Shown: positions 2,669-39,936 of the stretch, in pieces
How the letters are laid out: the number at the start of each line of letters is the position of its first letter
Position numbering within the stretch: the first letter of the stretch is position 1
Assembly: GCA_018242005.1 (NCBI GenBank)
Contig: JAFECU010000305.1
Span: 1 to 41,389 of the forward strand
Source of the DNA: Pseudomonadota bacterium
GTDB lineage: Bacteria > Pseudomonadota > Gammaproteobacteria > Burkholderiales > Burkholderiaceae_C
DNA: 41,389 nt
Reading direction: 5' to 3'
Position numbers and translations under genes: made by a program
The notes under the pieces: generated by a model
Database searches by the model: none
Seen by the model: the letters and a program-made list of their open reading frames with translations, nothing else
What the model was told of the DNA's origin: nothing

Positions 2669-2720
2669 GAAAAATACGGCTCCAGCGCCCTACCTATAAG
2701 CGGTAGCAGCTATCGAGTTT
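2669..2720 (-). repeat. Dispersed palindrome (copy 1)
   Basis: On the minus strand this reads GATAGCTGCTACCGCTTAT, then GGCGCTGGAGCC, then a T run. It fills the gap between the stop of the 73-residue gene and the start of the kinase fusion. Eight related copies occur in the window (see findings). Confidence 0.65.
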
Positions 2721-2941
2721 CATAAAGGCCGACGGCGCAGCGATTCGTCCCACGCCGGGTTGGGCCGGCCCTGGCCTGCATACTGCTGGTTGCGCGAGTT
2801 GGAGCGCCACACGCCGCCGCCAAAGCCGGCGATGGGCTCGGTGCGGTACCAGAACCAGCGCCCGTCCTCGTCCTGCGCGAGCCAATCCCAGCCCGCGGGG
2901 GCCTGTGCCCAGTCGGGCGCCCCATCTGCTGCTTCATTCAT
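2720..2941 (-). CDS. Small Trp-rich hypothetical protein
   Basis: A 73-residue acidic protein with a central aromatic stretch (DGRWFWYRTEP) and a C-terminal Asn/Gln/Gly-rich tail. No family is recognised. Coding is supported by codon usage like its neighbours, a plausible GGGAG upstream of the ATG, and a start/stop arrangement that fits the minus-strand run. The stop codon falls at the edge of a dispersed palindrome. It could be a conserved small protein of this bacterial family; no function can be assigned. Confidence 0.55.
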   Translation of the reverse strand: MNEAADGAPDWAQAPAGWDWLAQDEDGRWFWYRTEPIAGFGGGVWRSNSRNQQYAGQGRPNPAWDESLRRRPL

Positions 2942-2966
2942 TTAGAACTGGCTCCCTCATTGCGGC

Positions 2967-3059
2967 GCCACCCGGTGCCGGGTGGCTGTTGACGAAAACT
3001 TTACATGCCATGCCGGCCCATTCAGTCCAACTCCTGTGAACCGCAGCCGATCGGCTGCG
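2967..3059. other. Two palindromes in the intergenic region
   Basis: A hairpin with 9-bp arms (2967-2975 and 2978-2986, GCCACCCGG pairing with CCGGGTGGC) and a perfect 18-bp palindrome (3042-3059, CGCAGCCGATCGGCTGCG) lie between the divergent small gene and the lipoprotein gene. They could be terminators or operators; neither has a clear T tract. Confidence 0.4.
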
Positions 3060-3099
3060 TTCTAACATGCACCATGGCTCGATACCGGAGAGGTTCATC

Positions 3100-3489
3100 A
3101 TGACCAAAAGCGTGAAAAGCATGGCGACACGCCTGGCGTTTTCGCTGCTCGCGTTGTCCGCCCTGGGCGGGTGCGCGGTCTATGGGCCGCCTTCGGGCCC
3201 TTACGCGTACTACGGAACCGACGCCAGCGGCCAGGCCGTCTATGCGGCGCCACCCGTCAGCTATCCCGCCGCGCCCGTCTATTCCTCCCCGTACTACTAC
3301 GGACCGGCCTATGTGGGGCCGCCAATAGGATTGAACCTTGGTTTCAGCTATTGGCGTGGCGGCGGTGGTGGCTGGCATGGCGGCGGTTGGCGCGGCGGTG
3401 GCTGGCGCGGCGGTGGCTGGCGCGGCGGTGGCTGGCATGGCGGTGGCTTCCATGGTGGCGGGGGCCATGGCTGGGGCGGCCGACGCTGA
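3100..3489 (+). CDS. Gly-rich lipoprotein with tandem repeats
   Basis: A 129-residue predicted lipoprotein. It has a Lys/Arg N-terminus, a hydrophobic segment and a lipobox LGGC (Cys at about 26). A Tyr/Pro-rich middle (about 28-78) follows, then a low-complexity C-terminus of WRGGG/WHGGG units encoded by 15-bp repeats. The start is the ATG at 3100 because GGAGAGG (3087-3093) is well spaced in front of it; an 11-codon extension upstream is disfavoured. Similar short Gly-rich lipoproteins are common in this family of bacteria but have no established function. It is convergent with the permease gene, 15 bases away. Confidence 0.75.
   Translation: MTKSVKSMATRLAFSLLALSALGGCAVYGPPSGPYAYYGTDASGQAVYAAPPVSYPAAPVYSSPYYYGPAYVGPPIGLNLGFSYWRGGGGGWHGGGWRGGGWRGGGWRGGGWHGGGFHGGGGHGWGGRR
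3373..3462 (+). repeat. 15-bp tandem repeat coding WRGGG units
   Basis: Six units of 15 bp. The three central ones (3388-3432) are identical copies of TGGCGCGGCGGTGGC; the outer units differ by a few bases. The repeat lies in frame in the lipoprotein gene, so copy number changes would alter protein length by five residues without frameshift. Confidence 0.85.
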
Positions 3490-3504
3490 TGGGCGCGCCC
3501 TGGG

Positions 3505-6057
3505 CTACTCGGCTGCCGCTCGGCGCAGGGTCTCCACCACGGGGCGGCGCAGCACCTCGCGCAACCCCCACCAGCCTGCGGCCAGCGCCAGCAAGGCGCC
3601 CGCCAGGGCGCCCGCCAACGGTACCCAGGGCCGGGCCGTCCAGCTGAAGTCGAACACATAGCGCGCCAGCAACCAGCCCACGGCGACGGCCACGCAGCTG
3701 GCCAGGAGGCCCGCGAGCAGGCCCACGCCCGCCAGTTCGGCGCGCTGCACCTGGCGCAGCAGGCTGGCGCGCGCGCCCACCGCGCGCATGATGGCGTACT
3801 CGCGCGCGCGTTCCTCGCGCGTGGCCGTGACAGCAGCAAAAAGCACCACCAGGCCCGCGGCCAGCGTGAAGACGAAGAGAAACTCCACCGCCCCTATGAC
3901 CTGCGCCAGCACGCCCTGCACCTGTGCCAGCGTGGCGCTCATGTCCACGTTGGTGATGTTGGGGAAGGCATGCACCAGGGCGTTGTCAAAACCCGGGCGA
4001 TCGGGCGCGCGGTACGCGGCCAGGTAGGTCAGGGGCACGTCGGGCATCTGCGCCACGGGGTACATGACGAAGAAGTTGGCGCGCATGGAGCCCCAGTCCA
4101 CGCGGCGCAGGCTGGTGATGCGCGCCTCGCTGGTCACGCCGCCGATGTCAAAGCGCAGACTGTCGCCGAGCTTGAGGCCCAGGGTCTTGGCGATGCCCTC
4201 CTCCACGCTCACGGCGTCACGCTCGCCGGCGGTCCACTGGCCGGCGACGACGAGGTTGTTCTCGGGTGCTTCGAGCGCATTGGAGAGGTTGAACTCGCGG
4301 TCCACCAGGCCCTTGGCGCGGTCGTCGGGGTAGTCGTCCAGTTTGACGGCGCGACCGTTGATGGCCACGAGGCGGCCGCGGAACATGGGGTACCAGTCGT
4401 AGCGCGTCACGCCGTCCTGCGTCAGCAGGTGGCGAAAGGCGTCGGCCTGGTCCGGCATGATGTTGATGACGAAGCGGTTGGGCGCATTGGCCGGCGTGGC
4501 GCGCTGCCAGCTGGCGATGAGGTCGGTGCGCAAGAGCACCAGCAGCACCAGCGCCAGCAGGCCCACGGCCAGGCTGGCCACCTGCACCACCGCATAGGCC
4601 GGGCGCGCGGCGATCTGGCGCGTAGCCAGCACCAGCCAGCGCGGCGCCAAGGTCTCGCGCACGGCCTGGCGCAGCAGCCGCACCGCCACCCAGGCCAGGG
4701 CCGCAAACAGCAGCACGGCGGCGGCAAAGCCGCCCACGGCGATGGCGCCCAGCTTCCAGTCGCGACTGACCACCAGGAGCAGCGCGGCAAAGCCCGCCAG
4801 CCCCAGGCCCAGCACGGCCAGCGAGGTGGGGCGGACACCCCCCAGATCACGGCGCATGACGCGCAGCGGCGGCACCTGGGCCAGTTGCAGCACGGGCGGC
4901 AGCCCGAAGGCGCACATCAGCGTCAGGCCCACGCCCGCGCCCAGCGCCACGGGCCAGAGGCTGGGCGCAGGCAGCGTGGTCTGCACCAGAGGGGCGACCA
5001 TGAGCACGAATACATGGTGCACGGCGAAGCCCAGCAGCACACCCAGGGCACTGGCGCACAGGCCCACGAGCAGGAACTCCAGCGCATAGGCGCCGGCAAT
5101 GGCGCGCTGACTCTGGCCCAGCACGCGCAGGAGCGCGGCGGCGTCCAGGTGCTCGTTGGCAAAGCCGCGCGCGGCCAGGGCCACGGCCACGGCCGACAGC
5201 AGCGCCGCGAGCAGCGCCACGAGGTTGAGGAATTTCTGCGCGCGGTCCAGCGTCTGGCGCATCTCAGGGCGGCCGCTATCGAGCGACTCCACGCGCACGC
5301 CGCGCATGTCCGGCCCGGCAACGGCCGCGTTGGCCCAGGCGGTGAAGCGCTTGACGGCATCGGGCCGGCCGGCCACGGCAAAGCGGTAGGTGATGCGGCT
5401 GGCGGGCTGCACCAGACCTGTGGCGGGCAGGTCCAGCGCGTTGATCATCACGCGCGGCGCAAAGCTCATGAAGCCGGCGCCGCGGTCGGGCTCCAGCGTG
5501 ATGATGCGGGTGATGCGCAGCTGGGTGTCTCCCAGCAGCAGCGGGGCGCCGAGTTTGAGGGGCAGGGCATCAAGCAGCGACGCGTCGACCCAGGCCTGGC
5601 CGCGCGCGGGAATACCCTGCGTGGGGCTGCCTGCGCGCTGCAGGTCGGCCGTCACCTGCAGGCGGCCACGCAGCGGGTAGCCCGGCTCCACGCTCTTGAG
5701 CGCGACCAGCCGGCTGGCGCCACCCTGGGCGTCGCTGGCACGCGCCATGGTGGGAAAGCCCAGCGTGGTCACGCTCGTCAGGCCCAGGGCGCGCGCCTGA
5801 TTCCGCACCGCCGCGGGCGTGGGGTTGTCGCTGGCCACGACGGCATCGCCGCCCAGCAGTTGCAGCGCGTCGCGCGCCAGGCCACCCTGCATACGGTCGG
5901 AAAAAAAGCCCACCGAGGTCAGCGCCGCCACGGCCAGCGTGACGGCCACCATGAGCAGGCGCAGTTCGCCCGCGCGCAGATCGCGCCACAGCGTGCGCCA
6001 GCCCAGCAAAAGTGCAGAAGATTTGATTGATTTTTCCATCCAGGCCTTATTTGCCAA
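3505..6057 (-). CDS. FtsX-type ABC permease (YbbP-like)
   Basis: An 850-residue inner-membrane protein with the layout of the large YbbP-type permeases (COG3127-like). There is an N-terminal TM helix (about 32-50), a periplasmic domain, a first FtsX block with several TM helices (about 275-410), a central TM pair, a second periplasmic domain, and a C-terminal FtsX block (about 720-840). Such proteins pair with a LolD/YbbA-type ATPase, and none is next to this gene. The nearest candidate ATPase in the window (36050) has its own permease. The first ~13 codons (MANKAWMEKSIKS) overlap a dispersed palindrome, so the native start could be Met7 or the second half of that stretch. The substrate is unknown; lipid-linked or lipoprotein export is the family expectation. 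Confidence 0.85.
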   Translation of the reverse strand: MANKAWMEKSIKSSALLLGWRTLWRDLRAGELRLLMVAVTLAVAALTSVGFFSDRMQGGLARDALQLLGGDAVVASDNPTPAAVRNQARALGLTSVTTLGFPTMARASDAQGGASRLVALKSVEPGYPLRGRLQVTADLQRAGSPTQGIPARGQAWVDASLLDALPLKLGAPLLLGDTQLRITRIITLEPDRGAGFMSFAPRVMINALDLPATGLVQPASRITYRFAVAGRPDAVKRFTAWANAAVAGPDMRGVRVESLDSGRPEMRQTLDRAQKFLNLVALLAALLSAVAVALAARGFANEHLDAAALLRVLGQSQRAIAGAYALEFLLVGLCASALGVLLGFAVHHVFVLMVAPLVQTTLPAPSLWPVALGAGVGLTLMCAFGLPPVLQLAQVPPLRVMRRDLGGVRPTSLAVLGLGLAGFAALLLVVSRDWKLGAIAVGGFAAAVLLFAALAWVAVRLLRQAVRETLAPRWLVLATRQIAARPAYAVVQVASLAVGLLALVLLVLLRTDLIASWQRATPANAPNRFVINIMPDQADAFRHLLTQDGVTRYDWYPMFRGRLVAINGRAVKLDDYPDDRAKGLVDREFNLSNALEAPENNLVVAGQWTAGERDAVSVEEGIAKTLGLKLGDSLRFDIGGVTSEARITSLRRVDWGSMRANFFVMYPVAQMPDVPLTYLAAYRAPDRPGFDNALVHAFPNITNVDMSATLAQVQGVLAQVIGAVEFLFVFTLAAGLVVLFAAVTATREERAREYAIMRAVGARASLLRQVQRAELAGVGLLAGLLASCVAVAVGWLLARYVFDFSWTARPWVPLAGALAGALLALAAGWWGLREVLRRPVVETLRRAAAE

Positions 6058-6085
6058 CCGCAGATAGCTATAAATTAAATAGTAC
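6022..6085 (-). repeat. Dispersed palindrome (copy 2) at a gene start
   Basis: On the minus strand AGCTATCTGCGGTTGGC is followed by CCTGGATGG and an A run. The copy covers the gap between fdhD and the permease and supplies the start codon and first residues of the permease. Confidence 0.5.
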
Positions 6086-6090
6086 CCAAT

Positions 6091-7176: not shown

Positions 7177-10100
7177 ATGGACATGAACCGCCGGCATTTC
7201 TTCCGCGTGAGCGGCGCGGGACTGGTTGGCTCCAGCCTTGTCGCCATGGGCTTTTCGCCCGCTGCCGCGCTTGCCGAGGTCCGCCAGTACAAGCTGGCCG
7301 CCACCACCGTCACCCGCCAGACCTGCACCTACTGCTCGGTCGGCTGCGGCATCCTGATGTATGCGCTGGGCGATGGCGTCAAGAACGCCAAGCTGTCGGT
7401 GATCCACGTCGAGGGCGACCCCGACCACCCGGTCAACCGCGGCACGCTGTGCCCCAAGGGCGCAGGCCTGCTGGACTTCGTCCACAGCCCCAACCGCCTG
7501 CTCTACCCCGAGTACCGCGCGCCCGGCGCCAAGGAATGGCAGCGCCTGTCCTGGGACGATGCCCTCACGCGCATCGCCAAGCTGCTCAAGGACGACCGCG
7601 ACGCCAACTTCCAGGCCAAGACCCAGGACGGCCTCACCGTGAACCGCTGGCTCACCACCGGCATGCTGGCCGCCTCGGCGTCGAGCAACGAGGCCGGCTA
7701 CATCACCTACAAAGTGGCCCGCTCCTGGGGCCTGCTGGCATTCGACAACCAAGCCCGTGTTTGACACGGCCCGACGGTGGCAGGTCTTGCCCCGACGTTT
7801 GGCCGTGGAGCGATGACGAACCATTGGGTCGACATCAAGAACGCGGACGTTATTTTGATCATGGGCGGCAATGCCGCCGAAGCGCATCCCTGCGGCTTCA
7901 AGTGGGTGACCGAAGCGAAGGCGCACAACAAGGCGCACTTCATGGTGGTCGACCCGCGGTTCAACCGCTCGGCCTCGGTCGCCGATTTCTATGCCCCCAT
8001 CCGGTCGGGCAGCGACATCGTGTTCCTCGGCGGGGTCATCAACTACCTGCTGTCCAACGACAAGATCCACCACGAGTACGTGCACAACTACACGGACTTC
8101 AGCTTCATCGTGCGCGATGACTTCGAATTCGTGGACGGCATCTTCTCGGGCTACAACGAGGAAAAGCGCCAGTACGACAAGAAGAGCTGGGACTACGAGC
8201 TGGGCGACGACGGTTTCGTGAAGACCGACCCCACGCTGCAGCACCCGCGCTGCGTGTACCAGCTCATGAAGAAGCACTACGAGAGCTACACGCCCGAGAA
8301 GGTGGAGAGCGTCTGCGGCACGCCCCAGGCCAAGTTCCTGCACGTGTGCGAGAAGATCGCCGGCACCGCCGTGCCCGGCCGCGCCATGACCATCATGTAC
8401 GCGCTGGGCTGGACGCAGCACTCCATCGGCGCGCAGATCCTGCGCTGCGCCGCCATGGTGCAGCTGCTGTGCGGCAACATCGGCGTGGCCGGCGGCGGCA
8501 TGAATGCGCTGCGCGGGCACTCCAACATCCAGGGCCTGACCGACCTGGGCCTGCTCTCGGCCAGCCAGCCGGGCTACCTGACGCTACCGGGCGAGAAGGA
8601 GCAGGACTACCAGGCCTACATCGCCGCTCGCACGCAGAAACCCCTGCGCGCGGGCCAGATGAGCTACTGGCAGAACTACCCCAAGTTCCACGTCAGCCTC
8701 ATGAAGTCCTTCTTCGGGGCCAACGCCACGGCGGAGAACAACTGGTGCTTCGACTACCTGCCCAAGCTGGACAAGCAGTACGACATGCTGCAGATCTTCC
8801 AGCTCATGAACGAGGGCAAGGTCAACGGCTACATCGCGCAGGGCTTCAACCCGATCGCGGCGCTGTCCAACAGCGGCCGCGTGCGCGACGGCCTGGCCAA
8901 GCTCAAGTTCCTGGTCGTCATGGACCCGCTGGCCACGGAGACCTCGGAGTTCTGGAAGAACTACGGCGAGTACAACGACATCGACACGGCCTCCGTGCAG
9001 ACCGAGGTGTTCCGCCTGCCCACGACCTGCTTCGCCGAGGAAGAAGGCGCGGTGGTGAGCTCCTCGCGCGTGCTGCAGTGGCACTGGAAGGCGGCCGAGC
9101 CACCGGGCGAGGCCAAGACCGACGTGGCCATCATGTCGGCCCTGCACCTGCGCCTGAAGGCCCTCTACCAGAAGGACGGCGGCGCCTTCCCCGACCCGAT
9201 CGTGAACCTGGACTGGAAGTACGCGCAGCCCGCGCACCCGAGCTCCGAGGAGATCGCCAAGGAATACAACGGCAAGGCGCTCGTGGACCTGCTCGACCCC
9301 AAGGACCCGGGTAAGGTGCTGCGCCCCGCGGGCCAGCAGGTCTCGAGCTTCGCCGAGCTGCGCGACGACGGCAGCACCGCCTGTGGCTGCTGGATCTATG
9401 CCGGCGCGTGGACGCAGGCAGGCAACCAGATGGGCCGGCGCGACAGCTCCGACCCCTCGGGCATAGGCAACACGCTGAACTGGGCCTGGGCCTGGCCGGC
9501 CAACCGCCGCGTGCTCTACAACCGGGCCTCGGCCGACCTGCAGGGCAAGGCGTTCAACCCGAGCCGCAAGCTGGTCGAATGGAACGGCAAGAGCTGGGGC
9601 GGCTACGACGTGCCCGACATGGGGCTGACGCTCGCGCCCGACACGGGCGCCGGGCCGTTCATCATGAACCCCGAGGGCGTGGCGCGCTTCTTCGCGCGCA
9701 AGGGCATGAACGAAGGGCCCTTCCCCACGCACTACGAGCCGTTCGACACGCCCGTGGGCCGCAACCCGATGTACCCGGACAACCCCAAGGCCACGTCCTC
9801 GCCGGCCGCACGGGTGTTCCCGCACATCTGGGAAACCTTCGGCAAGGCGGACGAGTTCCCCCACGTGGGCACAACCTACCGCCTGACCGAGCATTTCCAC
9901 TACTGGACCAAGCACTCGCTGGTCAATGCCATCACGCAGCCCGAGCAGTTCGTCGAAATCGGCGAGGCCCTGGCCAAGGAACTGGGCATCGTGGCGGGCG
10001 ACCGCGTCAAGGTCAGCTCCAAGCGCGGCTTCATCAAGGCGGTGGCGGTGGTCACCAAGCGGATCAAGCCGATGAAGATCGAGGGCAAGACCGTGCACCA

Positions 10101-10242: not shown

Positions 10243-10252
10243 GGAGGCCACG

Positions 10253-14492: not shown

Positions 14493-14524
14493 TCTGCCGC
14501 AGCCGGCAGCTACCCAGACGAAAT

Positions 14525-14578
14525 CGGCATCCAACGCTTTATTGGCAAGTGCAAGCAGCTACTTAATAGATAGCAACT
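14525..14578 (-). repeat. Dispersed palindrome (copy 3) in front of selB
   Basis: On the minus strand this reads TAGCTGCTTGCACTTGCC, then AAAGCGTTGGATGCC. It ends four bases before the selB ATG, so the selB leader and ribosome binding region are made by the element; no strong Shine-Dalgarno is visible. Confidence 0.6.
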
Positions 14579-14582
14579 CACC

Positions 14583-16514
14583 ATGATCATCGGCACCGCA
14601 GGCCATATCGACCACGGCAAGACCTCGCTCGTGCGCGCGCTCACCGGCGTGGAGACTGACCGCCTGCCCGAGGAAAAGCGCCGCGGCATCTCCATCGAAC
14701 TGGGCTACGCCTACCTGCACGCGCCGGATGGCCACGGCCAGAACGTTTCACTGGGCTTCGTGGACATGCCGGGCCACGAGCGCCTGCTGCACACCATGCT
14801 CGCGGGCGCCACGGGCATCGCCCATGCCCTGCTCATCGTCGCCGCCGACGACGGCGTGATGCCGCAGACGCGCGAGCACCTGGCCGTGGTGGCGCTGCTC
14901 GGCGTCACCCAGGGCACGGTGGCCATCACAAAAATAGACAGGCTGGACCCCGCCACGCGCAACGCGCGCCTGGCCCAGGTGCAGGCCGACGTGCGCGCGC
15001 TGCTTGCGCCCACGGCGCTGGCGGGCGCGCCCATGTTCCCCGTCTCCACCATCACGGGCGAGGGCGTAGACAGCCTGCGCCAGCACCTGCTGGACAGCGC
15101 CCGGCGGCATGGCGCCGGCCCGCAGGACGCCGCGCGCGCCTTCCGCCTGGCCGTCGATCGCGCCTTCACGCTGGCGGGCGTGGGCACGGTGGTCACCGGC
15201 ACCGTGGCCAGCGGCCGGGTGCGCATGGGCGACGAACTGCTGCTCGCGCCCAGCAACCGCAGCCTGCGCGTGCGCGGCATCCACGCGCAGAACCAACCCG
15301 CCGACGAGGCGCATGCCGGCCAGCGCTGCGCCCTGGCGCTCGCAGGCGTGGCCAAGGACGAGGTGCAGCGTGGCGACTGGGCCTGCGCGCCCGCCATCGC
15401 GCTGGCCACGACGCGCATCGACGTCGAATGCACGCTCTGGCCCGACGAGCCGAAGGCCCTGCGCTCGGGCACGCCCGTGCATGTGCACCTGGGCAGCAGC
15501 GACGTGATGGGCAGCATCGTGCTGCTCGAGGGCGACAGCCTCGCCCCCGGCGCCACGGCCCTGGCCCAGCTCGTGCTGCACGCCAGCGTGGCCGCCTGGC
15601 ATGGCGACCGCGGCGTGCTGCGCGACGCATCGGCCACGCGCACCATGGCAGGGGTGCGCGTGCTCGACCCCTTTGCGCCGCAGCGCTACCGCCGCACGCC
15701 CGAGCGCCTGGCACAGCTGGCCGCCCAGGCCCTACCCGAGCGCGCCGCGCGCATCGCCGCCCTGCTTGACCAGTCGCCCCTGGGCCTGGACCTCGTGCAG
15801 ACCGCCCGCGCCGAGGGCCTGGCCGCCCCCGACGCCCTGCCCCTGCCCGAAGTCGCCATACGCCTGGACGGCGGCAGGGCGGCCATTGGCCCGGCCCTGC
15901 TGCAGGCGCTGCAGGCCCAGGCCGTGGAGCGCCTGCACGCCTTCCATGAAGGCAACCCCGGCGAGATCGGCCCCGATACGCGGCGCCTGCGCCGCCTGGC
16001 CGCGCCGCGCGCGGGCGATGCGCTCTGGCAGCACCTGATCGACGACCTGGTGGCCCGCAGCACCATCGTGCGCAGCGGCCACTGGCTGCACCTGCCCGCG
16101 CATGCCGCACACATGAACGCCACCGAAGAAAAGCTGGCCCAGCAGCTCATGCCACTGCTGCTGGCCGGCGGCTTCGACCCGCCCTGGGTGCGCAAGCTGG
16201 CGCAGGACTGCGGCGCCGCCGAGGCCCTGGTGCGCCAGACCCTGGCCAGCCTGGCGCGGCGCGGCGAGGTCTTTCAGTGCGTCAAAGACCTGTACTATCC
16301 GCTGCCTACAATCGAGCGCCTGGCCGCCATCGCACGCGACTGCATGGCCAGCGGTGATGCGGTGCAGGCATCGGCCTTTCGCGACGCCACGGGCCTGGGC
16401 CGCAAGCGCGCCATTCAGCTGCTGGAATTCTTCGACCGCGTGGGCTTCACGCGCCGCGTGAAGGACGCGCATCTGCTGCGCCCGGGCACACCGCTGTTTG
16501 CGGCGCGCGATTGA
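14583..16514 (+). CDS. selB: Selenocysteine-specific elongation factor SelB
   Basis: A 643-residue GTPase (E. coli SelB 614). It carries Sec-tRNA(Sec) to ribosomes paused at UGA by binding the SECIS hairpin. The EF-Tu-like part has GHIDHGKT at 7-14, the switch region RRGISIELG (about 34-42), DMPGH (about 61-65) and the TKID motif. The C-terminal ~270 residues form the winged-helix repeats that bind SECIS RNA. The P-loop has the usual SelB form. The stop is 9 bases before tRNA-Sec, which suggests co-transcription. Upstream, the only leader sequence is repeat DNA. Confidence 0.97.
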
Positions 16515-16523
16515 GTCTAAATC

Positions 16524-16615
16524 GGAAGGGAAGCGCCCCCGGTGGGGCGCCCGGGCTTCAAACCCGGCGGGTTGCGCCACGCGCGGCCGGTGGGTTCGAC
16601 TCCCTCTCCCTTCCG
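16524..16615 (+). tRNA. selC: tRNA-Sec (UCA anticodon)
   Basis: A 92-nt selenocysteine tRNA without an encoded CCA. An 8-bp acceptor stem is formed by GGAAGGGA (16524-16531) and TCCCTTCC (16607-16614), followed by discriminator G. The 6-bp D stem GCGCCC/GGGCGC, anticodon arm CCGGG-CTTCAAA-CCCGG with anticodon TCA, long variable arm and GTTCGACT T-loop all fit bacterial tRNA-Sec. The T stem has one U-U mismatch. It lies directly downstream of selB. Confidence 0.96.
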
Positions 16616-17554: not shown

Positions 17555-17902
17555 ATGTCAGACCCCCTACACCCCTGCCTCGCCTGTGGCGCCTGCTGCC
17601 ACGAATACCGCGTAGAGTTTCCCGTTTACGAACTGCAATCCATGGGCGGCAGCGTGCCCGACGCGCTGGCGCATGAGGTCAACGGCAACCGCTGGCGCAT
17701 GAATGGAACCAGCCACCGCCCGGTGCGCTGCGCGGCGCTCGTCGGGCGCTGTGGCGAGCAGTCGATCTGCGGCATATACGAACAACGCTCGTCCACCTGC
17801 CGCAGCTTCGAGATGGGTTCGGTGCGCTGCAACGACGCACGCCAGCGCCATGGCCTGCCGCCGCTGGATACGCCCTGGGACGAGTTCCCACTGGCGGCAT
17901 AA
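17555..17902 (+). CDS. YkgJ-type cysteine cluster protein (paralog 1)
   Basis: A 115-residue protein with the CLACGACC motif (residues 8-15), a second Cys in RCAALVGRC, and CGIYEQRSSTCRSFEMG (about 72-88), then another Cys. This is the pattern of the YkgJ family (Zn- or Fe-binding cysteine cluster, UPF0153), proposed to bind metal or an Fe-S cluster; no activity is proven. A related paralog lies at 20529. It is divergent from the DUF2945-like gene and convergent with the Feo-associated gene. Confidence 0.85.
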   Translation: MSDPLHPCLACGACCHEYRVEFPVYELQSMGGSVPDALAHEVNGNRWRMNGTSHRPVRCAALVGRCGEQSICGIYEQRSSTCRSFEMGSVRCNDARQRHGLPPLDTPWDEFPLAA

Positions 17903-17917
17903 CGCCTGAAATTCGAA

Positions 17918-17972
17918 GAAAAACGGTTCCAGCGCCCGTCTGGCAATAGCTTAAAGCTATTTATTTTGAAGC
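17918..17972 (-). repeat. Dispersed palindrome (copy 4)
   Basis: On the minus strand this reads AATAGCTTTAAGCTATTGCC, then GGGCGCTGGAACCG and a T run. It fills the short gap between convergent genes and could act as a bidirectional terminator. Its last bases touch the end of the Cys-rich membrane protein gene. Confidence 0.6.
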
Positions 17973-18206
17973 ATGAAAGTGGCGCCCAGCCCGTTCCGGC
18001 ACGGGCGGCTGCGCCGCCGCCCCCTGCGCCGCGGAACACCCGCCGCAGCTGCTGCATCCACCACCGCTGCCGCAGCCGCCCGGCCCCTGCGCCAGACTGG
18101 GGTGCAGGCGGCCCAGGCGCTGGCGCCAGGCTGCGGGCAGGTAGCGCCAGGCCATGTAGGCCAGGGCGACAACGACGATCAGGGTGACGATGATTTCCTG
18201 CAGCAT
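17961..18206 (-). CDS. FeoB-associated Cys-rich membrane protein
   Basis: An 81-residue small protein. An N-terminal TM helix (about 4-22, IIVTLIVVVALAYMAW) is followed by a basic stretch, then a Gly/Cys-rich motif GCGSGGGCSSCGGCS (about 46-60) and a tail. It occupies the position of FeoC or the short Cys-rich proteins that follow feoB in many bacteria. The start at MLQEII overlaps the feoB stop region (4-base spacing), indicating coupling. The cysteines could bind Fe or assist transport; this is inference from context. Confidence 0.75.
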   Translation of the reverse strand: MLQEIIVTLIVVVALAYMAWRYLPAAWRQRLGRLHPSLAQGPGGCGSGGGCSSCGGCSAAQGAAAQPPVPERAGRHFHASK

Positions 18207-20528: not shown

Positions 20529-20852
20529 ATGACCACCCATCCCTGCCTGAACTGCGGCGCCTGCTGCGCCAGTTTCCGCGTCGATTTTTCGGTGCACGAG
20601 ACCGAGGACCTGGGCGGCAGAGTGCCCCAGGGACTGGTCGTGCCGGTGACGCAACACACGGCCCGCATGCGCGGCACCGATCACGCGCGGCCGCGTTGCG
20701 CCGCGCTCACGGGCCAGGTGGGCCAGCGCGCGGCCTGCGGCATCTATGAATGGCGGCCCTCGCCCTGCCGCGAGTTCGAGGCCGGCAGCGAGGCCTGCAA
20801 CCGCGCCCGCCTGCGCCACCAGCTGCCGCCACTCGAAGGTCTGGTGCCGTGA
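20529..20852 (+). CDS. YkgJ-type cysteine cluster protein (paralog 2)
   Basis: A 107-residue paralog of the protein at 17555. It has CLNCGACC (residues 6-13), RCAALTGQ, then CGIYEWRPSPCREFEAG and a following Cys. Start at MTTHPC by alignment with the other paralog; 14 extra upstream codons are not supported. It ends in a GTGA overlap with kynB, yet it is functionally more like its partner on the other side of the feo operon. Metal binding is expected, activity unknown. Confidence 0.85.
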   Translation: MTTHPCLNCGACCASFRVDFSVHETEDLGGRVPQGLVVPVTQHTARMRGTDHARPRCAALTGQVGQRAACGIYEWRPSPCREFEAGSEACNRARLRHQLPPLEGLVP

Positions 20853-21647: not shown

Positions 21648-21716
21648 TCGAGCCATCGCAATCCAATCAGGTCTTGACACCCTGCCAGTGGTCGCATACA
21701 GCTACAAAACCAGTAG
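21648..21716 (-). repeat. Dispersed palindrome (copy 5), degenerate
   Basis: On the minus strand TTTTGTAGCTGTATGCGAC is followed by ACTGGCAGGG and TCAAGACC. It is a weak member of the family, lying between kynB and the deaminase gene. Confidence 0.4.
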
Positions 21717-21742
21717 CATCGGCACAATTTCCCATGGCCGCG

Positions 21743-22795
21743 TCAGCCGCGCGCGGCGTGACGCTCAAAGCACTCGTCCAGCCGCTGGTGCCAGACTCGC
21801 TTGTCCGCATCGGTCACGAAACTGGCCTCGAAACTGTTGCGGGCCAGCTGCCAGGCGTTCTGCGCCGTCAGCACGGCAAGCGCGGCGAAGGTGCGGATGA
21901 GGTTGTCGTTGATGTAGCCGCCGAAATAGGCCGGGTCGTCCGAGTTGACGGTTGCCACCAGACCCGCACCCAGCAGCTGCACCAGGTTGTGGCGCGACAG
22001 GTCGGGGAACACGCAGAGCTTCTGATTGGACAGCGGGCATACCGTGAGCGGTATGCGGTCCTGGGCCAGGCGCCGCATCAGCGCCGCGTCGTGCACGGCC
22101 TGCACGCCGTGGTCTATGCGCTCGGCCCGCAGCACGTCGAGCGCACCCCAGATGTAGGCCGGCGGCCCCTCCTCGCCCGCGTGCGCCACCACATGAAGGC
22201 CCAGCCGCCGGCAGCGCTCGAACACGCGCGCGAACTTCTCGGGCGGGTGACCGAGTTCGCTGCTGTCGAGACCCACGCCGATGATGCAGTCCAGAAAGGG
22301 CATGGCCTGCTCCAGCGTGGCAAACGCGTCCTCCTCGCTCAGGTGACGCAAGAAACTCATGATGAGCGTGGCCGATATGCCGAACTCGGCACGCGCATCC
22401 ACGCAGGCGCGGTGCAGGCCGCGCACCACGGTCCCCATGCTCACGCCGCGTGCGGTGTGCGTCTGCGGGTCGAAGAAGATCTCTGCGTGCACTACGTTAT
22501 CCGTAGCTGCCCGTGCAAGATAGGCACTGGCCAGGTCGTAAAAATCCTGTTCATGCAGCAGCACGCTGGCGCCGGCGTAATAGATGTCCAGAAAGCTTTG
22601 CAGGTCGCTGAAGGCGTAGGCGCGGCGCAGAGCCTCCACGCCGTCATAGGGCAGCGCCGCGCCGTTGCGCCTGGCCAGGGCGAAGATCATCTCGGGCTCG
22701 AGCGAGCCTTCGATGTGGATGTGCAGTTCGGCCTTTGGCATGGCCGCCAGCAGGGCCGGTAGGCGTTCGGGGGCAATGGCGGGCAGCGTGTGCAT
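21743..22795 (-). CDS. Adenosine/adenine deaminase family enzyme (adenine deaminase type)
   Basis: A 350-residue metal-dependent aminohydrolase. Zinc ligands are HIH (25 and 27), the His of VAHAGEE and the NSDDP motif near the C-terminus; the active-site Glu is in HAGEE. The [10 protein letters not shown] segment and [13 protein letters not shown] resemble the adenine deaminase subgroup (Aah1-like) more than true adenosine deaminases, so adenine to hypoxanthine is the preferred call. The start overlaps the Rieske gene stop (ATGA), giving a two-gene unit downstream of the purine-type ABC importer. Confidence 0.88.
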
Positions 22796-28822: not shown

Positions 28823-28861
28823 GGCGCGATTGTCTCCTAGATTTTGCAGCGCCTCCTTGAG

Positions 28862-28915
28862 TCAAAAACGGAGGTGGCGCCGACACAATGCACGCCGGCA
28901 GCTAGCCTTTTAGTA
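28862..28915 (-). repeat. Dispersed palindrome (copy 6)
   Basis: On the minus strand this reads GGCTAGCTGCCGGCGTGC, then GGCGCCACCTCCG and a T run. It lies between the diguanylate cyclase stop and the ATPase gene start. Confidence 0.55.
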
Positions 28916-28943
28916 GTGATGGGGCGCTGCCGCGCCCCATCAC
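28916..28943. other. Hairpin overlapping the diguanylate cyclase stop codon
   Basis: A 12-bp stem (GTGATGGGGCGC, 28916-28927, with GCGCCCCATCAC, 28932-28943) and a 4-base loop overlap the stop of the diguanylate cyclase on the minus strand. No clear T tract follows, so termination is uncertain. Confidence 0.4.
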
Positions 28944-33261: not shown

Positions 33262-33280
33262 CCGATACTTCCTGTCAGCA

Positions 33281-33315
33281 GGGCACGCGGGCTCATGGCC
33301 GCGTGCCCTTTGTGT
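33281..33315 (+). terminator. Rho-independent terminator after the porin
   Basis: GGGCACGCGG (33281-33290) and CCGCGTGCCC (33299-33308) form a 10-bp stem with an 8-base loop, followed by TTTGTGT. It separates the porin from the HIT gene. Confidence 0.88.
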
Positions 33316-33339
33316 ATTGGGCCCCCAGGAGAAGCACCC

Positions 33340-33777: not shown

Positions 33778-33832
33778 CCACTGGCCTGGCTGCTGCGCGG
33801 GACAGGCAGACTCTGCTACGCTCGCCCGCACC

Positions 33833-35083
33833 ATGTCCGTCCCGTCCGCCGCCGTCGGCCCGCTGGGGGTGCAGCGCATGACCGTCCCCCCCGGCCTGGC
33901 CATCGTGGTGCTGGCCCTGCTGCTGAGCATCCAGCCCGTCACCACCGACCTCTACCTGCCCGCCCTGCCCGCGCTCACGCGCAGCCTGGGCGCACCCGTG
34001 GCCGCGGGCCAGCTCACGCTGTCTGCCCTGCTGCTGGCCTTTGGCTGCTCGCAGCTGGCCTGGGGGCCGCTGTCCGACCGCCTGGGCCGGCGGCCCGTGC
34101 TGCTCATGGGACTGGCGCTGTACACGCTGGCCTCGGTGGGCGCGGTGCTGGCTCCTTCCATGGAGCAGCTCGTGGCCTGGCGCACGCTGCAGGGCGCGGC
34201 CATGGGCGCGGTGGTGATGTGCGCCCGCGCCATCGTGCGCGACCTGTATACGCCGCTGGCGGGGGCGCGCGCCATGTCCAAGGCACTCTCCGGCCTGGGG
34301 ATCATCGCCTGTCTGTGCGCGCCCCTGGGCGGGCTTCTGACCGAGTGGCTGGGCTGGCGCGTGGCGCTGCTGGCGCTCACGGCCTACGCCGTGGCCACGC
34401 TGGCCCTGGTGGCGCTGCGCCTGCCCGAGACGCTGCACCAGCGCAACCCCGACGCCCTGCGCCCGGCCACCCTGGTGCGCACCTGGGCGCGGGTGCTGCG
34501 CTCGCCCACGTTCTGGGCCTTTTCGTTGCAGACCACGGCAAGCTACGGCGGGCTGTTCACCTTCCTGGCGGCCTCGTCCTTCGTCTACATCGAGGTGCTC
34601 GGCCATACGCGCACACAGTATGGGCTGGTGCTGCTGTCGACGGCCTTGGCCTATCTGCTGGGCACGCTGCTGTGCCGGCGGCTGCTGGCGCGCCGGGGCC
34701 TCAGGCGCACGGTGGCCATCGCCGGCGCCCTGAGTGCCAGCGGCGGGCTGCTGATGCTGCTGGCTGCCGCCCTGGGCTGGCACAGGGTGGAGGCGCTGCT
34801 GCCGCCGTTCTACCTGTTCATGCTGGGCCATGGCATACACCAGCCCTGCGGGCAGTCGGGCGCCGTGGGGCCGTTCCCGCAGGCGGCGGGCGTGGCCTCG
34901 GCGCTCAACGGCTTCATGATGATGCTGGCGGCCTTCGCCATCGGCCGCTGGCTGGGCGGGGCGCTGGACGGCACCGTCTGGCCGCTGGTGCAGGGCGTGG
35001 CCCTGTGGTCGGTGCTGCTGGCCGCCATCACCTGGACGCTGGTGCAGCGCCACGCACCGCAGGAGCCCGCCCATGGCCGCTGA
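33833..35083 (+). CDS. Bcr/CflA-type MFS drug efflux transporter
   Basis: A 416-residue inner-membrane protein with about 12 TM helices. The Bcr/CflA pattern is clear: [11 protein letters not shown] after TM1 (about 40-50) and the [14 protein letters not shown] loop between TM2 and TM3. The family exports drugs such as bicyclomycin or other small molecules. Its 3' end overlaps miaA by 11 bases, so miaA translation may be coupled. Confidence 0.92.
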
Positions 35084-36044
35084 GCCCGTTCCCGCCATCG
35101 CTCTGGCCGGTCCCACGGCGTCGGGCAAGACGGCCGCGGCCTTCGCCATTGCCGAGGCCCTGGCGCCGCGGCTGCCAGTGGAGATCATCAGCGTGGATTC
35201 GGCCCTGGTGTACCGCGGCATGGACATTGGCACGGCCAAGCCCACGCCGCAGGAACTGGCGGCCGTGCCGCACCACCTGATCGACATTCGCGACCCTTCG
35301 CGGGCCTACAGCGCGGCCGAGTTCGTACAGGACGCCACGCGGCTCATCGAAGAAATCCGCGCGCGCGGCGCCCTGCCGCTGCTGGTGGGCGGCACCATGC
35401 TGTACTTCAAGGCACTGATGGACGGCATCGACGACATGCCCGCCGCCGACCCCGCCGTGCGCACCCGGCTGGAGCAGCAGGCTGCGGCACAGGGCTGGCC
35501 CGCCATGCATGCCGAGCTGGCGCGCGTGGACCCGGTCACGGCCGCGCGCCTGGCGCCCGGCGACAGCCAGCGCATTCAGCGCGCGCTGGAGGTCTGGCAT
35601 GTCTCGGGCCGGCCGCTATCGAGCTTTCACAAATCAAAAACAATAGTTGCCGGCGTCCGCCCCGTAAGTGCTAGTGCCCTTTTTTCCTTGGAACCGCAAG
35701 ACCGCGCCTGGCTGCACGAGCGCATTGCCCAGCGCTTTCACGCCATGCTGGCCGCGGGCTTCCTCGACGAGGTGCTGCGCCTGCGCGCGCGGGGCGACCT
35801 GCATGCCGACCTGCCCAGCATGCGCTGCGTGGGCTACCGCCAGGCCTGGGAATCGCTCGACGGCCTGCACCCCATGGCCAGCCTGCCCGAGCGCGGCATT
35901 GCCGCCACGCGCCAGCTGGCCAAGCGCCAGATCACCTGGCTGCGCGGCATGCCCGGGCGCCACGTCATCGCCTGCGATGCCCCGGGCGCCACGGCGCAGC
36001 TGGTGCGCGCCGTGTGCGACCGAGTGCCGGGCGGCGGCGCGTGA
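35073..36044 (+). CDS. miaA: tRNA dimethylallyltransferase
   Basis: A 323-residue enzyme that adds a dimethylallyl group to A37 of tRNAs reading UNN codons. P-loop GPTASGKT is at 13-20, [16 protein letters not shown] at about 41-56, and the [10 protein letters not shown] motif follows. A dispersed palindrome is embedded in frame in the variable C-terminal part, covering about residues 186-206 ([17 protein letters not shown] region), where family members vary. The catalytic regions are intact. It overlaps the upstream MFS gene and the next ABC gene. Confidence 0.95.
35628..35690 (+). repeat. Dispersed palindrome (copy 7) inside miaA
   Basis: AATAGTTGCCGGCG is followed by GTAAGTGCTAGTGCCC and a T run, in the consensus orientation. 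The copy is in frame, contains no stop, and is more AT-rich than the rest of miaA. Confidence 0.65.
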
Positions 36045-36049
36045 CACCC

Positions 36050-36706
<657 letters not shown>

Positions 36707-36715
36707 CCGCGAGGC

Positions 36716-37144
36716 TTACTCGATCGCCAGGCGCTGCGTCTTGTTGCCCTGCTTCTTGGGCAGCGTGAGCGTGAGCACGCCGTTGTCATACCTGGCCTTG
36801 GCCTGGGCCGCGTCCACCTCCAAGGGCAGCTGGAAGCTGCGCGCCACGGAGCCGTAGTAGCGCTCGCTGCGCAGCAGCTTCTCGCCATCCTTCTTCTGGT
36901 CGTGCTGGCGCACCTCGGCACGCAGGCTGACCACGTTGCCGTCGATGGAGACATTGATGTCCTCCTTGGGCACGCCCGGCACCTCGGCATGCACGGTGTA
37001 GGCGGCGTCGTCCTCCTTCACGTCGATCTTGATCTGCGAGGGCTCGGGCAACGCGTCGCCATGCAGCGGGCGCACATAGAAACCGGGGGCGAAGTCCTTG
37101 AAGAAATCGTCGAACAGGCTGCCACGGCTGATCAGTGAATTCAT
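36716..37144 (-). CDS. Hsp20 / alpha-crystallin small heat-shock protein
   Basis: A 142-residue cytoplasmic chaperone that holds unfolded proteins. The alpha-crystallin domain (about 38-130) has the DINVSIDGNVVSLRAEV and DNGVLTLTLPK segments, and the family signature A..DNGVL is present. AAGGAG precedes the ATG. A sigma32-like promoter lies upstream (37225-37253). It is inserted between an ABC ATPase and its presumed permease, in opposite orientation. Confidence 0.93.
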   Translation of the reverse strand: MNSLISRGSLFDDFFKDFAPGFYVRPLHGDALPEPSQIKIDVKEDDAAYTVHAEVPGVPKEDINVSIDGNVVSLRAEVRQHDQKKDGEKLLRSERYYGSVARSFQLPLEVDAAQAKARYDNGVLTLTLPKKQGNKTQRLAIE

Positions 37145-37224
37145 GATGAAACTCCTTGCTTGACACTAGAAAAACAATGAACCCCAGGGGGCTGCCCGGA
37201 AGGCCAACCCTGCCTGTTGAAACG

Positions 37225-37253
37225 TATATAGGCCCCTGGCCCCGCGCTTCAAG
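37225..37253 (-). promoter_or_regulatory. Sigma32-like heat-shock promoter of hsp20
   Basis: On the minus strand CTTGAAG (-35, 37247-37253), a 14-base spacer, and CCTATATA (-10, 37225-37232) match the heat-shock consensus CTTGAA / CCCCATNT reasonably well, about 80 bases upstream of the start codon. Confidence 0.6.
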
Positions 37254-37347
37254 GGCTTGAAATTCCGCCCATTTGACCTGGCGCAAACCCCGCGCATGGC
37301 CCGGCCGCGCCGCACAGGCGCCACACAACCGACACACAATCACCCCC

Positions 37348-39936
37348 ATGCTGCCCGCCCTGCTGCGCACCTTTTCCTGGCGTGAACTGCGGCGCCACCC
37401 CTGGCGCAGCGCCGCCGCCGTGGCCGCCGTCATGCTGGGCGTGGCCCTGGGGTTTGCGGTGCATGTGATCAACGCCTCGGCGCTTCAGGAATTCAGCCAG
37501 GCCGTGCGCACCGTGCAGGGCCGGCCCGACCTGGAGCTGCGCGCCACGCGCGGCAGCCTGCCCGAGTCGCTCTACGGCCTGGTCGCAGCCCAGCCTCAGG
37601 TGCAGCTGGCAAGCCCCTGGCTGGAACTGACCGTGCGCGCGAGCAGCGACTCGGCCCCTGCGGGCGTGGCGCTGCGCCTGCTGGGCGCGGACGCGCTGCT
37701 GCTGCCCACCATGGCCCCGGCCCTGGCGCCACGCGTGTTCGACGGCGGCAACCGGCTGGCCATGCTGGCGCCGGCCACGGTGTTCCTCAACCCCGCGGCG
37801 CAGCAGGCGCTGGGCCTGGTGGGCACGGCCGGCGACACGCCGCTCACGCTGCGCGCGGGCCTGGCCACGCACAGCGTGCGGGTGGCCGGCACCGTAGCCG
37901 CGGGTGGGCCGCCGCTGGCGCTGATGGACATTGGCGCGGCGCAGGATCTGCTGGGCCGCGGCGGCCAGCTCACGCGCATAGACCTGCGGCTGCGCCCCGG
38001 CGCAACACCCTCCGGGCTGCAGGCATCGCTGGCCGCGCTGCCCGGCTGGCCCCCTGGCGTGCAGTTCGCCGCGCCGCAGGACGCCGTGGCGCGCGTGGAC
38101 AACCTCTCGCGCGCCTACCGCGTCAACCTCACGGTGCTGGCGCTGGTGGCGCTGTTCACGGGCACGTTCCTGGTGTTCTCGGTGCTGGCGCTCAGCGTGG
38201 CGCAGCGCGCGCCGCAGCTGGCGCTGCTGGCCGTGCTGGGCGCCACGCCGCGCGAACGGCTGGCGCTGGTGCTGCTCGAATCCTGCGCACTGGGCCTGGT
38301 GGGCAGCGTGGCGGGCATTGCGCTGGGCACGTTGCTGGCGGCGCTGGCGCTCAGGCTGCTCGGCGGCGACCTCGGCGGGGGCTACTTTGCCGGCGTGCAG
38401 CCGGCGCTGCAGTGGAGCCTGTCCGCCGCCCTGGTCTACGGCCTGCTGGGCATGGTCGCGGCGCTGGCGGGCGGCTGGTGGCCGGCGCGCCAGGCCCAGC
38501 GGCTGCCGCCGGCACAGACGCTCAAGGGCCTGGGCAGCCAGCGCGGGCGCACAGGCCCTGCCTGGGTTGCACTTGTTTTGATAGCTGCCAGCGCTTTAAT
38601 GGCAACCGCTCCGCCCATTTTTGGCATTCCATTGGCGGCCTATGTGTCGGTCGGCCTGCTGCTGGTCGGCGGCATGGCACTGCTGCCCTGGCTGGTGCAG
38701 GCACTGCTTGCCCGCCTGTCCCCGCTGGCCGCGCGCAACGCGCCGGCCCTGCTGGCCCTGGAGCGCGCGCGCCGCATGCCCGCAGGAGCGGCCGTTGCCG
38801 TGGGCGGCGTGGTGGCCGCGCTGAGCCTGGCCGTGGCCCTGACGGTAATGGTGAGCAGTTTTCGTGGATCGCTGGGCCAATGGCTGGACAGCGTGCTGCC
38901 CGCGCCGCTCTACCTGCGCGCCGCAGGTGGTGCAAGCGGCGACGATGCCGCTGTGTTCCCGCCCGGCTTTGCCGCTGCGCTGGCCGCCCTGCCCGGCGTG
39001 GCACGCGTGCAGGCGCTGCGCACCAGCAGCCTGCAGCTGGAGCCCGACCGCCCCGCCGTGGCACTGCTGGCCCGCCCACTGGGCCATGACCCGGCCCAGG
39101 CCCTGCCGCTGGTGGGCGCCGCCCTGCCCGTGCCGCCGGATCGCGTGGGCGTGTACGTAAGCGAGGCCGTCGTGGCCCTGTACGGCGTCAGGGCGGGCGC
39201 GGACTGGCCCGCGTTATCCAAGGCTTTCAGGCGTCCAGCGACTGATGGCAAAGCGCCAGAAACTACATTTTTCATAGCTGGCGTGTGGCGCGACTATGCG
39301 CGCCAGCATGGCGCCGTTGCGCTCGACAGCCAGGACTTTGCACGCCTGAGCGGCGACGCACGCACCAGCGATCTGGTGCTGTGGCCCGCACCCGGCCTGA
39401 ACGCCGACGCGCTGCGCGCCCAGGTGCTGGCCCAGGCCCGCCTGAGCCTGGGCGAGGCCGCCGCCGCGGCGCTGGAATTCAGCTCGGCCGAGGCCATACG
39501 CGCGCGCTCGCTGGCCATCTTCGACCGCAGCTTTGCCGTCACCTACTGGCTGCAGGCCGTGGCCATTGCCATCGGGCTGTTTGGCGTGGCGGCCAGCTTC
39601 AGCGCCCAGGTGCTGGCGCGGCGCAAGGAGTTCGGCCTGCTCGCCCATCTGGGCCTGACGCGGCGGCAGATTCTGGCGGTGGTCGCCGCCGAGGGCGCGG
39701 CGTGGACGGCCGTGGGCGCGCTGGCCGGCCTGCTGCTGGGCCTGGCCGTGGCAGCGGTGCTGGTGCATGTGGTCAACCCGCAGAGCTTTCACTGGACCAT
39801 GCAGCTCGCCCTGCCCTGGCCGCGCCTGGCGGCCCTGGCGGGCGCCGTGGTGGTCGTGGGCACGTTCACGGCCTGGTTCGCCGGCCGCATGGCCGCGGCG
39901 CGCGATGCGGTGCTGGCCGTGAAGGAAGACTGGTAG
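37348..39936 (+). CDS. FtsX-type ABC permease (large, two-unit)
   Basis: An 862-residue inner-membrane permease. TM1 is at about 22-42, a large periplasmic domain follows, then an FtsX block (about 250-385), a central TM pair (about 400-460), a second periplasmic domain, and a C-terminal FtsX block (about 725-850). It has the same class layout as the permease at 3505 and should work with the ATPase at 36050 in exporting or extracting a lipid-linked substrate. Two dispersed palindromes lie in its coding region (near residues 409-428 and 626-645). Start MLPALLRTF; an upstream 25-codon extension is not supported. Confidence 0.88.
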   Translation: MLPALLRTFSWRELRRHPWRSAAAVAAVMLGVALGFAVHVINASALQEFSQAVRTVQGRPDLELRATRGSLPESLYGLVAAQPQVQLASPWLELTVRASSDSAPAGVALRLLGADALLLPTMAPALAPRVFDGGNRLAMLAPATVFLNPAAQQALGLVGTAGDTPLTLRAGLATHSVRVAGTVAAGGPPLALMDIGAAQDLLGRGGQLTRIDLRLRPGATPSGLQASLAALPGWPPGVQFAAPQDAVARVDNLSRAYRVNLTVLALVALFTGTFLVFSVLALSVAQRAPQLALLAVLGATPRERLALVLLESCALGLVGSVAGIALGTLLAALALRLLGGDLGGGYFAGVQPALQWSLSAALVYGLLGMVAALAGGWWPARQAQRLPPAQTLKGLGSQRGRTGPAWVALVLIAASALMATAPPIFGIPLAAYVSVGLLLVGGMALLPWLVQALLARLSPLAARNAPALLALERARRMPAGAAVAVGGVVAALSLAVALTVMVSSFRGSLGQWLDSVLPAPLYLRAAGGASGDDAAVFPPGFAAALAALPGVARVQALRTSSLQLEPDRPAVALLARPLGHDPAQALPLVGAALPVPPDRVGVYVSEAVVALYGVRAGADWPALSKAFRRPATDGKAPETTFFIAGVWRDYARQHGAVALDSQDFARLSGDARTSDLVLWPAPGLNADALRAQVLAQARLSLGEAAAAALEFSSAEAIRARSLAIFDRSFAVTYWLQAVAIAIGLFGVAASFSAQVLARRKEFGLLAHLGLTRRQILAVVAAEGAAWTAVGALAGLLLGLAVAAVLVHVVNPQSFHWTMQLALPWPRLAALAGAVVVVGTFTAWFAGRMAAARDAVLAVKEDW
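38572..38632 (+). repeat. Dispersed palindrome (copy 8) inside the permease
   Basis: TTGATAGCTGCCAGCGCTTT is followed by GGCAACCGCTCCGCCC and ATTTTT, close to the family consensus on its left arm. It is in frame and encodes part of a hydrophobic helix. Confidence 0.6.
39225..39282 (-). repeat. Dispersed palindrome (copy 9) inside the permease
   Basis: On the minus strand GTAGTTTCTGGCGCTTTGCC is followed by GTCGCTGGACGCC. It is in frame in a variable periplasmic part of the permease. Confidence 0.6.

Follow-up and report, generated by a model that had tools for sequence, protein, structure and literature searches.

A clade-specific interspersed palindromic repeat of 62 to 66 bp, apparently undescribed, in Acidovorax and related Burkholderiales

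Several kinds of short DNA words are dispersed through bacterial chromosomes. The DNA uptake sequences of Neisseriaceae (DUS) and Pasteurellaceae (USS) are dispersed, constrained in sequence, and tolerated in coding DNA. The repetitive extragenic palindromic (REP) sequences and bacterial interspersed mosaic elements (BIMEs) of gammaproteobacteria, which go with REP-associated tyrosine transposases (RAYTs), are short palindromes present in more than 100 copies, most of which lie in intergenic DNA close to 3' ends, and a REP carries a GTAG or CGTC tag at one end (PMC3733652). Rickettsia palindromic elements are about 150 bp long and are found in frame inside unrelated housekeeping genes (PMC10969869). 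The nearest report found in the taxa considered here is that of BRE, a repeat of Comamonadaceae and Bordetella that is usually intergenic and has some copies in genes; its full-length Bordetella copies are 75 to 91 bp long with a GC content of about 69%, and no genome has more than 29 of them (Hot et al. 2011, PMC3110155). Here we describe a repeat found in a stretch of 41,389 nucleotides from a bacterium of the Burkholderiaceae_C (contig JAFECU010000305.1 of assembly GCA_018242005.1; the whole stretch is called the window), in which a first-pass annotation had pointed out nine copies of a degenerate palindrome.

The element is a clade-specific interspersed palindromic repeat of 62 to 66 bp that is apparently undescribed. 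Rfam, searched at gathering thresholds, gave no match to the repeat copies, and a literature search of limited reach found no description of it. The repeat resembled the REP/BIME systems in being a short palindrome with more than 100 copies that are mostly intergenic and near 3' ends, and its left foot, which was ATAG in most copies and GTAG in a minority, came close to the REP tag. It differed from those systems in that about 20% of the sampled copies were in genes, RAYT genes of the clade are mostly flanked by a different repeat, and the inner arms were conserved as sequence rather than as pairs. It shared with the Rickettsia elements the presence of a palindrome in frame inside unrelated housekeeping genes; unlike those elements, it is about 62 bp long and mostly intergenic, adds no element-length segment to proteins, and occupies the same sites across species. 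In comparison with BRE, the repeat had a GC content of about 47% and at least 149 matches in one genome, and a strict pattern for it was absent from 195 sampled genomes outside the family; the comparison, which covered length, GC content, numbers, and distribution, set the repeat provisionally apart from BRE. In comparison with DNA uptake sequences, the repeat was much longer and sparser (about 53 bits over 65 columns, one copy per 7.4 kb).

The repeat family is real. The strict 30-base pattern occurred 12 times in the whole genome to which the window belongs (3.96 Mb in 313 contigs), compared with no occurrence of the reversed pattern. The copies matched by this pattern were aligned and used to build a covariance model, R1, which gave at least 149 matches in the same genome (E ≤ 10); R1 scores 150 candidates per genome, and this count and that of the top relative (147) are lower bounds. 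A profile hidden Markov model (HMM) was seeded with 59 stronger copies, all from outside the window, and run on 788,147 bases of the genome, a sample made up of stretches selected for containing model matches. It gave 131 matches at E ≤ 0.1, whereas the same sequence reversed gave none at this threshold and one at E ≤ 1. Merging of the strands yielded 107 copies, 40 of which had served as HMM seeds. Chance similarity, the alternative named in the first-pass annotation, was ruled out at the level of the family by the reversed control. Several copies in the window are weak when taken singly, and the place claimed at position 21648 may be chance, but the control and the presence of the family in many independent genomes make chance resemblance or an assembly artefact vanishingly improbable as an explanation of the whole.

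Each unit consisted of a CTA-type left end, an AT tract, ATAGCTGC, GCGCTT, a variable 7-base centre, AAGCGCT, an AGGC-like foot, an ATTT tract, and an ACTCAAA-like right end, and the arms were mutually complementary. The first-pass annotation had proposed a palindrome of about 50 bp; the palindrome was borne out, and the unit proved longer, with conserved outer AT tracts and a conserved right end. Its view that the copies form a family, belong to this clade, and in part lie inside genes was right, as was its remark on AT-richness, since flanks with about 30% A+T contrasted with up to 81% in the AT tract of the element. Its density of one copy per roughly 4.6 kb was too high; we found one per 7.4 kb over the 788 kb of match-bearing stretches. 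By the HMM, 82 of the 107 copies were full length, 14 had the left part only, 1 had the right part only, and 10 were of other kinds. The left foot in 102 aligned copies of this genome was ATAG in 65, GTAG in 13, AGAG in 13, and GGAG in 3, and 9 of 85 copies from relatives had GTAG.

The strict pattern was seen in one bacterial family. Two of 200 genomes sampled from the order contained it, the window's own and G093, a member of the same family; it was found in none of three other family members and in none of the 195 genomes from outside the family. Of 70 genomes from the family, 3 carried a stricter 37-base pattern, and the window's own was one of them. Among the matches listed (80 of at least 119 stretches), the hosts were Acidovorax, Paenacidovorax, Simplicispira, Giesbergeria, Diaphorobacter, Extensimonas, Ottowia, Comamonas, Rhodoferax, other Burkholderiales, and one bin labelled Gammaproteobacteria. 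R1 at E ≤ 1e-6 was positive in 9 of 20 chosen genomes, with at least 147, 125, 107, 88, 40, 36, 33, 9, and 3 matches, and gave none in the other 11, three of which were outside the family. The repeat was scarce on plasmids and phages: a single query matched 3 of 72,556 plasmid records, all partially and one of them in Agrobacterium, and none of 50,697 phage records. Fourteen stretches of viral contigs contained a pattern match.

Copies of the repeat were stable in position. We followed 27 own copies through four syntenic regions in five relatives, which gave 135 places, 79 of them unmappable; HMM E-values vary with the set searched, and this tally therefore has one own copy fewer than an earlier mapping. 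The element was retained at 50 of the 56 mappable places, 4 places were equal in length with a score below threshold, and 2 differed in length. When all six genomes were considered, the corresponding numbers for 445 mappable ordered pairs were 346, 55, and 44. A copy inside miaA was found in 8 of 16 genomes from four genera (G000, G272, G203, G271, G209, G268, G202, and G201) and was absent from G206, G204, G210, G205, G007, G200, G012, and G208. Similarly, eight genomes, the window's among them, shared one DNA word at the first of two copies inside an FtsX-type permease gene; by eye, the word could not be made out in the seven homologues that came next. A separate tally gave 26 length-differing places. 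Eight length-differing reference copies were aligned, and the differences were imprecise changes or rearrangements; by eye, none of the eight cases had an element-sized empty site or a target duplication. This suggests that many copies are old and vertically inherited in place and are not recently jumping DNA.

Genes were called with a purpose-built codon-usage caller, by which about 88% of the sampled sequence was coding. Of the 107 sampled copies, 86 were intergenic or at contig ends: 59 were in co-directional gaps, 17 in convergent gaps, 5 in divergent gaps, and 5 at contig ends, and 21 were inside genes. Divergent gaps contained fewer copies than their share of bases predicts (5 of 81, with about 20 expected, p = 2e-5). 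A copy in a co-directional gap lay at a median of 6 bp from the stop codon upstream of it and of 16 bp from the start codon that follows. Of 38 same-strand stop codons within 40 positions of a copy, 24 started at -6 to +2 of its left end. A copy left no more than 20 bp on either side in 24 of the 59 co-directional gaps and 6 of the 17 convergent gaps. The spacing between copies was slightly more even than random (61 intervals, coefficient of variation 0.73, p = 0.017; p = 0.032 when compared with placement in gaps).

The genes that hosted a copy included miaA, selO, mutS, dapF, lpxB, fmt, and a gene for a TIGR00275 flavoprotein. When eight of the host proteins were compared with homologues, the local length change at the element ranged from about -13 to +11 residues, whereas a clean insertion would add 20 to 22; one further host protein was without a solved homologue for comparison. 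In lpxB, the stretch coded by the element aligned without gaps to solved LpxB (5w8n), with the R, Q, P, and VVP residues kept. In the FtsX-type permease, homologues without the word had the same protein segment, ungapped and written in other codons. Simple insertion is thus unlikely in at least these two genes, to go by the alignments. The element-coded segments of mutS, dapF, and miaA were poorly conserved. The first-pass annotation had held that relatives without the repeat but with the same residues at these sites would speak for chance similarity. The comparison was split: the miaA loop differed in relatives that lack the repeat, while the FtsX protein segment was homologous and ungapped in them and its DNA differed.

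We also examined whether the DNA of the element changes more slowly than the protein or its surroundings would predict. In four of five in-gene copies with data, protein conservation was 0.56 to 0.76 compared with 0.86 outside the copies in the same genes; the fifth, a half-copy at 22490, had 0.87. Conservation in 14 gaplessly alignable loci, which were selected by gapless mapping and may include loci outside genes, was 0.873 in core columns, 0.747 in other element columns, and 0.833 in flanks, and the core exceeded the rest of the element in 13 of the 14 (Wilcoxon p = 0.00085, tested per locus). AT-ending codons were retained more inside copies than outside in all 13 overlapping three-genome comparisons, with p < 0.05 in four. 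This codon test was conditioned on the ancestor, since most AT-ending codons outside copies are of recent origin and would otherwise inflate conservation. In the FtsX-type gene, windows of synonymous conservation did not single out the element, although its third codon positions were the most AT-rich. As for pairing, the inner stem in the relatives' copies, a set collected by the HMM and thus by sequence alone, was at shuffle level (406 of 1,000 shuffles for the paired fraction and 110 of 1,000 for compensatory cells), and the outer pairs in the own-genome set showed no excess either (363 and 302 of 1,000). Covariation of the inner arms is weak.

Core conservation, AT-codon retention, and even spacing favour selection on the DNA sequence, with ectopic conversion between copies and detection bias as alternatives. 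We tentatively prefer the reading that the core is a dispersed DNA signal, most likely a putative protein-binding site, and we give this reading somewhat less than an even chance. From the observed family, its positions, its age, and the contrast between the core and the rest of the element, we infer the following course. Many copies would predate the separation of the window's genus from a neighbouring one, and a few that of the four genera, and they would since have been inherited in place, with no present movement seen. The core (ATAGCT, GCGCTT, AAGCG, and the C of the right foot) would be under selection on its DNA sequence more than on a hairpin, and its duplex may be recognised by a sequence-specific DNA-binding protein used chromosome-wide, for nucleoid or supercoiling organisation, much as E. 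coli BIMEs are used by IHF or gyrase. Sites would be favoured where a copy does least harm, namely immediately behind a stop codon, between convergent genes, or in a part of a protein that tolerates change. This reading is supported by the conservation of positions and of the core, the retention of AT-ending codons, the shuffle-level inner pairing, the depletion in divergent gaps, the even spacing, the scarcity on plasmids, and the lack of a phage match.

Several results weigh against a protein-binding signal. The core did not differ significantly from the flanks (p = 0.19), and loci were tested only if a copy was detectable in some genome, which favours retention of the core. GC-ending codons were retained less inside copies than outside in 3 of 4 comparisons. 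Many copies were strongly decayed, as neutral fossils would be. The inner stem had a small pairing excess in the own-genome set (1 of 1,000 for the paired fraction and 8 of 1,000 for compensatory cells), a set collected partly by a model that scores pairing, and the outer AT pairs in the relatives' set were above shuffles (0 and 7 of 1,000), with counts inflated by orthologues. Ectopic conversion between copies could also maintain the consensus.

Because the first-pass annotation had suggested a REP-like element moved by a RAYT, and had proposed a search for the gene, we looked at Y1_Tnp genes. The window's genome and ten relatives had one match each, except for G270, which had four. Among these 14 loci from 11 genomes, GGGGTC-type inverted repeats were present on both sides in seven (from seven genomes), on one side in two, and on neither side in five. 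The seven loci L083 (1061-1920), L303, L305, L306, L307, L310, and L313 hold a RAYT-like Y1_Tnp flanked by inverted GGGGTCAGATTCCAATTAA-type repeats, and these are a second repeat system of the clade. Our element was beside a Y1_Tnp gene clearly at one of the 14 loci, L309 of G209, where a copy scoring 45 bits lay at 1375-1437 just upstream of the RAYT match, and weakly at L312. The RAYT as the cognate system of our element was unsupported, given that the RAYT loci of 7 of the 11 genomes bear their own flanking repeat on both sides, and with it the proposed route of mobilisation. A search that covered Y1_Tnp and not other transposase families found no mover for the repeat.

A rival reading is that the repeat is a fossil, a REP-like palindrome or a miniature inverted-repeat transposable element that a RAYT or some other transposase mobilised in a common ancestor and that is now decaying neutrally. 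Defined ends, a palindromic form, a high copy number, and one consensus over several genera are all what such a fossil would leave, as are the patchy distribution within one family and the continuum of decay. G209, which had the most R1 matches among the genomes compared with R1, is also the genome with a copy beside its RAYT. The left foot, mostly ATAG and sometimes GTAG, is close to the REP tag, and this GTAG-like foot and the outer-AT pairing in relatives count for the fossil and against the binding site. What speaks against a fossil is the different repeat on both sides of the RAYT in 7 of 11 genomes, the lack of a clean empty site in the eight aligned length-differing cases, the host proteins that changed by other lengths than a clean insertion requires, and the slower change of core columns than of the rest of the element. 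We consider this origin doubtful but a substantial possibility. An RNA hairpin that acts as a transcription terminator or as a stabiliser of mRNA 3' ends, the other route named in the first-pass annotation, fared worse. Copies do cluster at stop codons and occur in convergent gaps, and three canonical copies gave better folds than their shuffled versions did on average (z = -4.0, -1.9, and -1.3). However, a run of at least four T residues followed the right arm in only 33 of 102 aligned copies, with the equivalent on the other strand also in 33 of 102; the copies showed no clear bias in orientation relative to the gene (34 same, 25 opposite); 21 of 107 were inside genes, and others often lay directly before the next start codon; and three copies in the window folded no better than shuffles. 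With U runs in a minority of copies and weak covariation of the inner arms, a function as an RNA hairpin was set aside as very unlikely.

Two further explanations concern signals in DNA. A DNA uptake-type signal kept by biased transformation would account for the constraint at the level of sequence, vertical inheritance, scarcity on plasmids and phages, and occurrence inside homologous coding DNA. In its favour, one study reports natural competence in Acidovorax temperans and A. facilis, no case in which a tested Acidovorax strain took up a trait from the DNA of a different species of the genus by transformation, and selective binding in Verminephrobacter (PMC4212676). The signal is also consistent with short-arm scans, in which no intact partner arm accompanied 32 of 74 and 92 of 138 matches (7 and 22 in the reversed controls). 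Known uptake signals are several times denser than the repeat, however, and 82 of the 107 copies were full length by the HMM. Their stated length is 9 to 11 bp (PMC4212676), compared with about 62 bp and one copy per 7 kb here. The same word in different Acidovorax species would leave that species-level specificity unexplained, and an uptake signal seems to us to have a slim chance of being right. The remaining explanation is that the repeat did not spread through insertion and instead arises in place: substitutions or short replacements would turn DNA that is already there, also in coding regions, into the 62-bp word, and selection or a transmission drive, for example biased DNA uptake, would then maintain it. 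It fits lpxB and the first FtsX copy best because the word overlays their segments without gaps relative to word-free homologues, a status that was seen for FtsX and is presumed for the solved LpxB. We regard an origin in place as unlikely; if true, the repeat would be an unusually long dispersed genome signal.

Eight of the nine places claimed in the window hold a copy, as judged by the HMM, by R1, or by a counterpart in a relative, and the HMM run on the window alone recovered seven of them (E = 6e-11 to 0.014). The claim for 21648 was unsupported; the nearest HMM match there was 21693-21719 with E = 2.9. Five copies on the minus strand lie at the edges of genes or between them. That at 2666-2731 is intergenic and adjoins the start of the minus-strand gene 1117-2667 (HMM 2666-2716, E = 5e-7; R1 23.8 bits). 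The copy at 6021-6086 is diverged (HMM 6046-6085, E = 2e-4; R1 18.9 bits), and, by eye, the in-frame ATG (6039) of the permease at 3505-6039 lies within its right arm, which agrees with the start codon role that had been proposed. The copy at 14515-14576 is just upstream of a gene starting at 14583 (HMM 14518-14576, E = 6e-11; R1 26.7 bits). In a convergent gap, 10 bp past a called stop codon, is the copy at 17913-17974 (HMM 17913-17973, E = 2e-6), which has a counterpart at the matching place in G268 and G209. The copy at 28858-28919, in a co-directional gap, is decayed (R1 13.8 bits, E = 0.39) and has a recognisable counterpart of 15.9 bits at the matching place in G209. A probable left half-copy on the plus strand at 22488-22516, inside the gene 21743-22795, was weak in the window (E = 1.1), whereas the corresponding sites of G272 and G209 scored 13 to 14 bits.

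The other three copies are in frame inside genes on the plus strand. One, at 35628-35694 on the plus strand (HMM 35636-35692, E = 1e-6), is in miaA (35073-36044; NCBIfam TIGR00174). The FtsX-type permease gene, an open frame of 887 amino acids at 37273-39936, hosts a plus-strand copy at 38567-38627 (HMM 38569-38605, E = 7e-7) and, in opposite orientation, a minus-strand copy at 39216-39282 (HMM 39234-39279, E = 0.014) that has counterparts at the same place in G272, G268, G203, G271, G209, and G201. The gene was named in the first-pass annotation, and one homologue is annotated as an FtsX-like permease; it had strong matches in 22 of 30 genomes searched and weak ones only in the other 8. A search of plasmids with the FtsX stretch gave six records, one of which was a homologous FtsX-like gene. 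Like 37273-39936 of the window, L080 14229-15965 is a gene with two in-gene copies of the repeat.

Other features of the window were observed in passing. A SECIS_3 element at 7759-7817 and a selenocysteine tRNA at 16524-16614 (both by Rfam) mark a selenocysteine cluster. GGC-rich 15-bp repeats are arranged head to tail at 3347-3496 in seven register copies. The stretches 505-560 and 630-685 form an inverted repeat of 56 nt with 75% complementarity and a spacing of 69 nt. Related stretches at 17570-17631 and 20538-20599 (73% identity over 62 nt) are probably parts of duplicated genes, and G272 seems to be without part of the 17570-17631 region.

A repeat with more than 100 copies that is stable in position and present in housekeeping genes without an element-length addition is unlike the bacterial palindromic repeats with which we compared it. 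For annotation, it should be kept in mind that gene ends of the clade, and at least one start codon, fall within the repeat. Codon-by-codon comparison of element-bearing and element-free orthologues offers a direct means to tell inserted repeats from signals that evolve in place. The repeat points to a putative DNA-binding factor, or to a signal, that would act across the whole chromosome in a family common in the environment.

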